From: Singulisphaera sp. GP187
Lineage (GTDB): Bacteria > Chloroflexota > Chloroflexia > Chloroflexales > Roseiflexaceae
DNA length: 34,040 nt
Assembly: GCA_943328915.2 (NCBI GenBank)
Contig: CALQBW020000010.1
Location: forward strand, 1 to 34,040
Reading direction: 5' to 3'
Shown: in pieces, positions 11,609 to 14,312 of the stretch
Position numbering within the stretch: the first letter of the stretch is position 1
How the letters are laid out: every line of letters begins with the position of its first letter
Position numbers and translations under genes: made by a program
Notes under the pieces: generated by a model
Seen by the model: only the letters and a program-made list of their open reading frames with translations
Told to the model about the DNA's origin: nothing
The model's database searches: none

Positions 11609-11866
11609 AAAAACCCCCGCCCCAAACAGGGACGAGGTGCAGTGACCCCGCGGTACCACCCTGATTGCCACATACGCGTGGCCACTTTGTGAGCGCGAAC
11701 ACGCTCTGCCCCGGTGACGGAGGGCACCCGGTCGGCTTACACACAGCGTCGGCTGCTTGGGCCTCCTGCTCAGAAGGGATACCGGTCAGTGTCGTTGATG
11801 CGCCTCTCACCAATTGCGCATTCGCTGATCAAACGGATAACTGCCGACGTGTCTTCGTCATTGCTT
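11609..11866 (-). promoter_or_regulatory. ileS: T-box riboswitch leader of ileS
   Basis: On the minus strand the diagnostic T-box AGGGTGGTACCGCG lies at 11649-11662. After it comes a 9-bp terminator hairpin (11629-11637 with 11615-11623) and TTTTT (11609-11613), so control is by transcription attenuation. Upstream, the Stem I top hairpin ATGCGC...GCGCAT has a loop containing GGTGAGAG (about 11797-11822). A candidate specifier ATC (isoleucine) is at 11778-11780. Uncharged tRNA-Ile would pair with the specifier and T-box and favour the antiterminator. A second ATC at 11797-11799 lies within the stem and is less likely. Confidence 0.9.
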
Positions 11867-11872
11867 GTGCGC

Positions 11873-11960: not shown

Positions 11961-11990
11961 TTGCTCTATTATTGTTTGGTGTGCTATACT
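11961..11990 (+). promoter_or_regulatory. Extended -10 promoter of the zinc-ribbon miniprotein
   Basis: TTGCTC (11961-11966) and TATACT (11985-11990) are 18 bases apart, with an upstream TGC giving an extended -10 (TGCTATACT). The 13 bases TTGGTGTGCTATA are identical to those in the korA promoter at 14388-14400. Confidence 0.6.
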
Positions 11991-12033
11991 GTCGTTATGT
12001 TTTCGTATTCATTGAGATACATGGAGTATAATC

Positions 12034-12228
12034 ATGGCCAAAGAAACCAAAGGTAAGTCAAAGACAGACGTGACGTCACGTGACAAAAGTGGTCGTGCCA
12101 CCGTGCACACTTGTGTCAACTGCAACGAACGCATCATGAACGACCGTGAAATGATTGTGTTGATGGATGATCGCCGTCGCAACAAGACGTACCACCACCG
12201 CACATGTCACCAAAAGACCTTGGGTTAA
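12034..12228 (+). CDS. 64-residue zinc-ribbon-like protein of unknown function
   Basis: This small basic protein has a Lys/Ser/Thr-rich N-terminus (residues 1-22) and a possible metal site made of C27-x-x-C30 (HTCVNCNE) and a C-terminal HHRTCH (H54, H55, C58, H59). The middle is RIMNDREMIVLMDDRRRNKTYHH. I do not recognise the family. The ATG has GGAG at 7 bases. The gene has its own extended -10 promoter and a strong terminator 16 bases after its stop, so it is a self-contained unit and not a shadow frame. It stands divergent from the ileS T-box leader. Size, charge and the Cys/His pattern would suit a ribosome- or nucleic-acid-associated protein, but that is a guess. Confidence 0.75.
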   Translation: MAKETKGKSKTDVTSRDKSGRATVHTCVNCNERIMNDREMIVLMDDRRRNKTYHHRTCHQKTLG

Positions 12229-12244
12229 TCCCAATTGGTCACGG

Positions 12245-12286
12245 AACGTCGGAGCTTTCTAATCGAAAGCTCCGACGTTTTTGTTT
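12245..12286 (+). terminator. Rho-independent terminator of the zinc-ribbon gene
   Basis: A perfect 15-bp stem (12245-12259 with 12265-12279) with a 5-base loop is followed by TTTTGTTTT. It lies 16 bases after the stop codon and 10 bases from the convergent Hsp70-like gene. Confidence 0.92.
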
Positions 12287-12295
12287 TAGGGAATG

Positions 12296-13678
12296 TTATT
12301 TTTGGAGTTGGGCAAACAACGTATCATCTGCGGCGGCGATACCAAGCCCTTGGGCCACACCAGTGAAGGGGTCCATTTCGACCATGGCGGCACTGCCAAA
12401 GCGTTGCGTCAGCATGCGCACAAACGCCGGGATGCGCGATGACCCGCCGGTGCGGAGCACCACGTTGATGTCGTTGTGGGTCAATTGGGCGGCGCTGATC
12501 GCACGGTCGACACAGGCAGCCACGGCACGGATGTCGGGGCCAATCAACCGCTCAAAATCCCAACGCTCGATAGGTTGCTCGATAGCAATCCCCGGTACAT
12601 GCAGCGACACATTTGTGTTGTCTTCGCTACTCAAGCGTACTTTTGCTTGTTCGACGGCTTCAAAGAGCGGTAACCCATAGTTTTGATTGACCAATACCTT
12701 CAGTTGAGCGACTAAATCAGGTTGGGTACTGGTATGGAGCAAATCTTCGATCATCGGCATATATTTGGGGTGGGATAACTCAAATATACTTTGCCATTCG
12801 CTGAGGCGGTCAGAAATTGCCGCGGGGAATGGCATGCGTTGGCTACCGATTTTTGATTCGACGCCAAAGTGCGAAAGTAATTTGCCCATCATAATGCGTT
12901 GATCCATCACGTCGCCGCCAACAGGCACACCGTCATTGCTGAGGACACGACTTCCGCCACGGCCATCGGTTGCAATAATCGTGACGTCGAGGGTACCACC
13001 ACCAAAGTCAAACACCAAAGCGCGTTGGTTGGCAGCGGCGGTGCGGGCATAGGCCACCGCGGCGGCATTGGGTTCGGGCAAAAAGGCGAATTGTGGTAAG
13101 GCGGCGAGTTGGCAGGCTTCGCGCATGCGGTCGATGGCGATTAGGTCATGATCGGGGTTGTGGGAGTAGTGGACCGGGCGCCCGATGACCATGCGGGTGA
13201 CTTTATTGCCAAGGATGACTTCGATGCGGTCGACGATCATGCGCAGTACGATAGCGATGAGTTCTTCGATGCGGTAGGGCGTGCCAAAGACGTTGGTATC
13301 GACGAAGGCACTATCGCGCAGATGGGATTTGAGTGATTGAAACAAGCGTCCAGGAATGTTTTGATCGATTAGGGCGCCTATGCTTTGGAATATAATTGCC
13401 CCGTTGCCATCGAGTAATTCAGTTTTGCCGAAATCTTGCCAGGCGTATTCGATGGTGCGGCCCACATTGGCATGGGTGAAACGGTTGATGGCTTCGCGAC
13501 CGATGAAACGCTCTCCGGGTTCGGGATTGCGGTCAGTGCCGCCCCTGGCAATGAACAACGTTGTACGCATGACAAGGGGATTGGCGCTAAATGGGTCGAG
13601 TGGCAACAAGGTAACGGACGAACCGTCATAAATTGCTACACTAGAGTTAGTAGTTCCGAAGTCTAATCCGACATACAT
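12296..13678 (-). CDS. Hsp70-family actin-like ATPase (YegD-like)
   Basis: This 460-residue protein consists almost only of the Hsp70/actin ATPase fold. Phosphate-1 motif VGLDFGTTNSSVAIYD is at 3-18, phosphate-2 motif LVFDFGGGTLDVTII at 221-235, and the adenosine motif VVLRTGGSSRIPAF at 406-419. An Hsp70-specific PEPNAAAVAYA (201-211) is present. The substrate-binding domain of DnaK is missing, as in the YegD subgroup, so it may be a specialised chaperone or a regulatory ATPase; its target is unknown. The ATG at 13676-13678 has GAGAGG 10 bases upstream. Its start is only 16 bases from the divergent pyrE start. Confidence 0.87.
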   Translation of the reverse strand: MYVGLDFGTTNSSVAIYDGSSVTLLPLDPFSANPLVMRTTLFIARGGTDRNPEPGERFIGREAINRFTHANVGRTIEYAWQDFGKTELLDGNGAIIFQSIGALIDQNIPGRLFQSLKSHLRDSAFVDTNVFGTPYRIEELIAIVLRMIVDRIEVILGNKVTRMVIGRPVHYSHNPDHDLIAIDRMREACQLAALPQFAFLPEPNAAAVAYARTAAANQRALVFDFGGGTLDVTIIATDGRGGSRVLSNDGVPVGGDVMDQRIMMGKLLSHFGVESKIGSQRMPFPAAISDRLSEWQSIFELSHPKYMPMIEDLLHTSTQPDLVAQLKVLVNQNYGLPLFEAVEQAKVRLSSEDNTNVSLHVPGIAIEQPIERWDFERLIGPDIRAVAACVDRAISAAQLTHNDINVVLRTGGSSRIPAFVRMLTQRFGSAAMVEMDPFTGVAQGLGIAAADDTLFAQLQK

Positions 13679-13694
13679 AGTGAAGGAGCCTCTC

Positions 13695-14312
13695 ATGTCG
13701 AATCAATCCCAAGTGGCATTGGCGTTGTTGCGAGCGCATGCGGTGTTATTGCGCCCCCACGAGCCATTTACCTTTGCATCAGGGATTAAGTCGCCGATTT
13801 ACTGTGACAATCGCTTGTTAATTGGTGATGTGGCCACGCGGCAAATTATCAGCGATGCCTTTGCAGCTCTTGTTTCTGATTGCGATGTCGTGGCTGGTAC
13901 CGCCACCGCAGGTATCCCCTGGGCGGCATGGGTGGCAGAGCGGGCTGAACGCCCGATGGCCTATGTGCGGAGTGGTGCCAAAACACACGGTCGTGGACGC
14001 CAAGTCGAGGGCGCCGACATCAAAGGCAAACGCGTGATGTTACTCGAAGATACCGTGTCGACGGGCGAAAGCGCCGTCACGGCAATCGAGGCATTATACA
14101 CCGAAGGGGCGAGTGCTGTGACTTGTGCGTGTATCTTTACCTATGGTTGGCAAGCCACATTTGACCGGTTTGTGGCGGCCAACGCCCCCTTGACTCCGTT
14201 GACGTGGTTAACACCATTGCTCGAGGTCGCGGTGGCTGAACGGTTCATCAAAGGTGACGATCGTGCCTTGGTGGAATCGTGGTCGGCCAATCCACAAGGA
14301 TGGCTTGCGTAG
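13695..14312 (+). CDS. pyrE: Orotate phosphoribosyltransferase
   Basis: This 205-residue enzyme joins orotate to PRPP to form orotidine monophosphate in pyrimidine synthesis. The PRPP-binding motif VMLLEDTVSTGES spans 114-126, and the N-terminal FTFASGIKSPIYCDNR (26-40) is typical of PyrE. The flexible catalytic loop around RSGAKTHGRGRQVEG (92-106) carries the expected Lys and His. The ATG at 13695 follows GAAGGAG at 7 bases; an in-frame GTG at 13680 is possible but not preferred. It stands alone, without other pyr genes, and diverges from the Hsp70-like gene at very close range. No clear promoter was found; one would have to lie within the Hsp70-like coding region. Confidence 0.93.
   Translation: MSNQSQVALALLRAHAVLLRPHEPFTFASGIKSPIYCDNRLLIGDVATRQIISDAFAALVSDCDVVAGTATAGIPWAAWVAERAERPMAYVRSGAKTHGRGRQVEGADIKGKRVMLLEDTVSTGESAVTAIEALYTEGASAVTCACIFTYGWQATFDRFVAANAPLTPLTWLTPLLEVAVAERFIKGDDRALVESWSANPQGWLA

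Follow-up and report, generated by a model that had tools for sequence, protein, structure and literature searches.

A small basic Chloroflexota protein with a conserved putative zinc site, probably ribosome-bound, and its altered second copies in relatives

The window (the whole stretch of DNA analysed, 34,040 nt) encodes a small basic protein that is best explained, with modest confidence on our part, as the zinc-stabilised form of a Chloroflexota protein that probably binds the ribosome and is zinc-swapped in relatives. The sequences of two lineages point to a spare copy located among zinc genes, preceded by a shared palindrome and with the zinc site weakened or removed. The zinc-ligand-bearing form is referred to as A, and the second copy in the window's own bacterial family as B. 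The gene, its conserved ligands, the two types of paralogue, their neighbours and the palindromes are read directly from the genomes. The window gene and its signals are:

11982..11990, + strand: extended -10 promoter element TGCTATACT, consensus TGNTATA[AC]T
12023..12026, + strand: Shine-Dalgarno GGAG, 7 nt 5' of the ATG
12034..12228, + strand: coding sequence of the 64-residue basic protein (A, the zinc-ligand-bearing form), from the ATG at 12034 to the stop at 12228
12112..12123, + strand: presumed ligands C27 and C30 (CVNC, codons 27-30); C27 invariant, C30 in at least 90%
12196..12207, + strand: presumed ligands H55 and C58 (HRTC, codons 55-58); H55 invariant (27 of 27)
12243..12281, + strand: intrinsic terminator of 17 pairs

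The window protein (MAKETKGKSKTDVTSRDKSGRATVHTCVNCNERIMNDREMIVLMDDRRRNKTYHHRTCHQKTLG) has a pI of 9.9 and a net charge of +7, in agreement with the preliminary description of a 64-residue basic protein. The self-contained single-gene unit proposed there, with its own extended -10 promoter and a very strong terminator, is borne out by the -10 element, the GGAG and the terminator stem; the fold of positions 12229-12295 has an energy of -32.4 kcal/mol and a z of -6.8. L002 and L003, the closest orthologues, share this stem, and other relatives have different stems. The pattern TGNTATAMT occurs five times in the window compared with 0.92 expected. Elements of this kind (TGNTATA[AC]T) lie 45-106 nt 5' of the start codon in all 19 A genes examined, which comprise the window's own, six more of the genus and twelve of the family. 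A consensus scan found no -35 element paired with the -10 of the window gene. All seven same-genus A genes have GGAG or GAGG upstream. The window gene looks to be transcribed alone, from an extended -10 promoter that looks constitutive. Comparison with the same-genus orthologue L007 showed 24 synonymous and 2 non-synonymous codon differences, indicating purifying selection on the protein.

The window gene is divergent from ileS, and a T-box leader of ileS (11625-11870, - strand; 74.3 bits, below the Rfam gathering threshold of 93) lies between the two genes. The convergent neighbour (12296-13696, - strand) encodes a short Hsp70-like protein of 466 residues, which is below the cut-off for each of the ten NCBIfam models listed. 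An Hsp70-like homologue is found about 2 kb or less from the A gene in four of six relatives' contexts (L059, L061, L062 and L063; not L060 or L064), and a gene for a retropepsin-like aspartyl protease adjoins or is near the A gene in four of the six (L060-L063; PF13650/PF13975 in L062). Most neighbour names in the contexts of the A genes and of the ligand-less copies described below were read by eye, and such reading revealed no gene for a ribosomal protein in the surroundings of the main copy.

The preliminary description recognised no family, and the window protein indeed has no match at cut-off in Pfam, NCBIfam or PHROGs, with sub-threshold matches in Pfam and none in the other two. Among the literature matches listed, no paper title naming this protein was found. 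With a single protein as query, relatives turned up in 20 of 158 genomes of the class; every one of these 20 belongs to the window's own bacterial family, which was represented by 26 genomes in the search. A profile search of the phylum found relatives in 71 of 400 Chloroflexota genomes. A further profile search found them in 79 of 400 at E <= 0.001, or in 74 after the removal of five genomes that had only matches with E > 1e-4 (four of these in frames longer than 300 residues). The large branch is Ktedonobacteria, with 41 loci (including Ktedonobacter, Thermogemmatispora, Dictyobacter and Thermosporothrix) in a scan of one genome per species across 84,980 species that used Ktedonobacteria-branch patterns only. 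No convincing match was found in G017, which is 100% complete and from the same bacterial family, in G012, in two same-genus genomes that are 90-91% complete (G005 and G006), or in five genomes (G024, G025, G030, G045 and G048) drawn from three further families of the order; every match in this absence search except the B copy of G003 was taken as chance. The protein family is lineage-specific and patchy within Chloroflexota, and the patchy distribution argues that it is not a core or universally needed ribosomal protein. Searches with the window protein in viral contigs and phages, with the Ktedonobacteria alignment in viral contigs and with a Thermogemmatispora relative in plasmids found no relatives.

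The aligned zinc-form proteins are 59-70 residues long, and the seven family proteins tested have pI values of 9.5-10. The broad alignment (A3) has 27 rows of zinc-form relatives and leaves out B and the ligand-less copies. C27 and H55 are invariant in all its rows and C30 is conserved in at least 90%; position 58 is Cys, but His in the Ktedonobacteria branch. The Cys and His residues, on whose conservation the preliminary description had staked its reading, are thus retained in homologues. The zinc ribbon named there is probably the wrong fold class, because the ligand pattern CxxC...HxxC (C27, C30, H55 and C58) looks like that of a treble clef, as does the AlphaFold2 model. This model, calculated with 29 sequences, has a mean pLDDT of 72, with 53-55 for the first 20 residues and 79-86 for the blocks of residues 21-60. 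The N-terminal tail of ~20 residues is probably unstructured. The zinc knuckle, together with a hairpin (40-45/50-55) and a helix (56-63) in the model, suggests a treble clef. The best match in Foldseek is PARP-1 Zn1, at a weak E of 0.13. The best match in VIA-align is a pre-60S chain, which we take to be RLP24 (eL24 type), with a Z of 4.0 and an rmsd of 2.1 over 41 residues; PARP-1 and eS26 are close behind, and the scores are low and tied. Being tied and weak, these matches of the model name a fold class and not a function. The model of the ligand-less form has a mean pLDDT of 80; it shows strands in the same region and lacks the C-terminal helix predicted for the window protein.

Several other resemblances were rejected. 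The Pfam matches of single relatives to Prok-RING_1 and zf_C2H2_13 (down to E 0.0002) were read as general zinc-finger resemblance, and the match checked for one such relative scored 18.1 bits against a cut-off of 26.5. Profile matches to LIM domains (E 0.004) were read as treble-clef resemblance. The phmmer matches to designed ankyrin repeats (best 0.0008) reflect a chance short motif, no stretch being significant alone. Identity with bL32 or bL33 was rejected, as the window protein has no such Pfam match, and so was a replacement of these proteins, as all 16 genomes examined have a separate bL32 and a separate bL33.

The paralogue B is present in 10 of the 26 genomes of the window's bacterial family, nine of which also have A. 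The window's own genome, which is 94% complete, yielded A but no detected B. The nine intact B proteins all show a replacement of the His ligand by Arg (YYRRDC or YYRREC), a knuckle that reads CxHC and a C-terminal extension with one conserved Cys. Since three Cys and the His of the CxHC are retained, B is not plainly ligand-less. The Cys that remain are enough for a metal, suggesting that the substitute in this bacterial family may bind zinc with higher affinity instead of dispensing with it.

All ten B loci contain zinc-starvation or ribosomal-protein genes. Neighbours of B include bS18 in seven loci (six of them with bL28) and ZigA in four, one locus belonging to both groups. Five loci have the arrangement B-bL28-bS18, one has an ABC-3 permease, bL28, bS18, B and ZigA, and three have B-ZigA, one of them with bL28 behind ZigA. 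One locus (L027, G019:C39) has a truncated B beside bS18, and no bL28 was found between the two. Pfam and NCBIfam identify bS18, bL28, FUR and ZigA (639.9 bits for ZigA, with a cut-off of 600); a protein of the FUR family is encoded near B at L054 8105-8566. The search for additional gene copies covered bS18 and showed two bS18 genes in each of the seven genomes in which bS18 adjoins B and one in each of the other six genomes searched. Among the B-adjacent proteins read, bS18 has one Cys in five cases and none in one, and bL28 has one Cys in six of six; by their sequences, both look like zinc-free forms.

Two further proteins recur in these surroundings. One, of ~200 residues, lies near ZigA, B or a ligand-less copy (L050 5906-6511, L054 7467-8024, L056 3005-3517, L057 620-1225 and L153 2713-3240); no Pfam family was found for the two tested, and it is perhaps another zinc-starvation gene. 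The other is a zf_Tbcl treble-clef protein with a sub-threshold cold-shock-like match, homologues of which lie near the B loci L050, L051, L052, L053, L056, L057 and L027.

A different kind of second copy is found in Ktedonobacter robiniae (L139) and strain brp13 (L140), where all four ligands are absent: the CxxC is DPIT, and YHKxHY is YNKDNY or YSKSSY. Normal copies are present in the same genomes (L123 in K. robiniae and L132 in brp13). Of the 29 genomes of that Ktedonobacteria family, 2 have a ligand-less copy, and each of the two has a single bS18 gene. L139 is followed by a CobW_C domain, and L140 is near two ABC-3 permeases. The COG0523 GTPase beside L139 consists only of the C-terminal half (CobW_C; L139 5273-5845); a short N-terminal-like COG0523 GTPase piece at L140 5238-5444 was read by eye and has no Pfam match. 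In a tree of 38 proteins, limited by few columns, B grouped with the A genes as a single clade (99/98); the ligand-less pair likewise grouped with the Ktedonobacteria zinc-form genes (100/98). As B and the ligand-less pair form separate clades in different branches, the two duplications look independent.

The palindrome TGATA-N5-TATCA, with at most one mismatch and within 150 nt upstream, precedes nine of ten B genes and both ligand-less genes, whereas it precedes one of 19 A genes and none of nine Ktedonobacteria zinc-form genes. For each of 11 second-copy genes, no more than 3 of 500 base shuffles were as good. The only B gene without the palindrome (L026) has at least one gene ahead of it in its row. 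The sole palindrome-bearing A gene is L012, in which the site overlaps the -10, and the brp13 zinc-form gene has a weak palindrome-like site at -146. Within the window's genus, the TTGACA promoter of B is overlapped by two palindromes of the type TTGATAGTNACTATCAA. Matches to TTGATAGTNACTATCAA with at most one mismatch occur in six places in eight same-genus genomes. Four of these are at B-ZigA, a fifth precedes another COG0523 gene, and the sixth, at a galactokinase gene, counts against perfect specificity of the palindrome. At most two mismatches gave 16 places in the eight genomes compared with 4 for a control pattern. No match was found in the window's genome. ZnuA of the same genus is preceded by a weaker tandem palindrome pair. 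Because they also stand before ZnuA and another COG0523 gene in one genus, the palindromes are probably Zur boxes, a putative assignment made from sequence.

Zinc binding, control by Zur, replacement and ribosome binding are what we infer from these comparisons. The window protein would have one treble-clef zinc site (C27, C30, H55 and C58) behind its N-terminal tail and would bind either the ribosome or an intermediate of its assembly, where the zinc knuckle would serve as a structural anchor. Zur in relatives would repress the second copy while zinc is plentiful. Upon zinc scarcity, the second copy would be made with the alternative bL28, the alternative bS18, ZigA and zinc import, and would replace the first copy. 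This substitute would work without ligands in two Ktedonobacteria, and in the window's bacterial family with the His ligand lost and a conserved C-terminal Cys gained. Ribosome binding appears the most likely role because of the basic tail and the loci common to bL28 and the extra bS18. The preliminary description had suggested a ribosome-associated or stress role. The former gains indirect support from the paralogue, which shares loci with bL28, the extra bS18 and ZigA; the latter can be narrowed to zinc starvation and would apply to the substitute copy, not to the copy in the window. The earlier guess thus becomes a specific, testable hypothesis.

The genomes indicate a candidate ribosomal protein, a zinc-free or remodelled spare of which seems to have arisen twice, beside zinc genes or spare ribosomal proteins. 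It is rare for a new ribosomal protein to be found in bacteria, and among the papers listed in a literature search on Chloroflexi ribosomes no title or abstract concerned one. We regard as tentative, and short of probable, the further proposal of an unrecognised Chloroflexota ribosomal protein with an eL24/eS26-like treble clef, whose zinc-starvation substitutes evolved twice (by loss of all ligands and by exchange of the His for a C-terminal Cys).

Other roles for the protein were weighed against the same data. A ribosome hibernation or assembly factor, bound only in some ribosome states and not a stable subunit, would account for the same context evidence as the ribosome-bound reading, and the single-gene unit and the patchy distribution are consistent with it. 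However, the promoter element of the main copy, present in 19 of 19 A genes, looks constitutive, and we consider such a factor unlikely. Less likely still is a zinc-finger transcription regulator, akin to DksA or binding RNA polymerase, whose zinc-independent paralogue would be controlled by Zur, on the model of DksA and DksA2. The available part of PMC2770081 places DksA paralogues without the C4 motif downstream of putative Zur sites, and the zf-dskA_traR model has a weak match of 13.2 bits in the window protein and, at E <= 1, matches in 9 of 27 family members (best 0.0016). The match in the window protein is below the Pfam gathering cut-off of 24.9 bits and spans the first CxxC only, the protein has no second CxxC, and the loci of the paralogue are shared with ribosomal-protein genes.

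A zinc buffer, or a client of the ZigA metallochaperone, would store or pass zinc, with B as a higher-affinity, thiolate-rich version. The CxHC and the C-terminal Cys of all nine intact B proteins would suit this function, as would the position of B next to ZigA in four of ten loci. But the Ktedonobacteria substitute is without any ligands, so that zinc storage could hardly be the function shared by both lineages, and we consider this explanation very improbable. For the preferred ribosome-bound reading, the existence of Zur-linked exceptions, such as the DksA paralogue, means that regulation alone is no proof of a ribosome role.

Comparisons with known systems place the protein family as follows. 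The model of the window protein shares the knuckle, hairpin and helix with eL24/RLP24, eS26 and PARP-1 Zn1, but the structure scores are low and tied, and the likeness is one of fold only. Zur-linked zinc-free paralogues are also known for non-ribosomal proteins such as DksA, according to the part of PMC2770081 available. As with DksA, a zinc-finger protein in the Chloroflexota family is accompanied by a ligand-less paralogue close to zinc genes; unlike DksA, the Chloroflexota protein has no second CxxC and only a sub-threshold Pfam match. The accessible portion of PMC3087516 describes C+ and C- forms of uS4, with Chloroflexi among the groups that have both, and records no Zur sites found near the uS4 paralogues. 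Both uS4 and the Chloroflexota family have C+/C--type forms of one protein, whereas uS4 is universal and the Chloroflexota family is not. The closest parallel in regulation would be the Zur regulons that, in the part of PMC6103462 available, swap several ribosomal proteins for zinc-free (C-) copies. The Chloroflexota protein differs from these C+/C- ribosomal proteins in being a candidate only, in matching no family of known ribosomal proteins, in its lineage-specific and patchy distribution, and in that one lineage has the ligands remodelled and not lost. It shares with them a small basic protein with a zinc knuckle, a second copy with altered or lost ligands, a palindromic putative operator, and loci with bL28, an extra bS18, ZigA and zinc transport.
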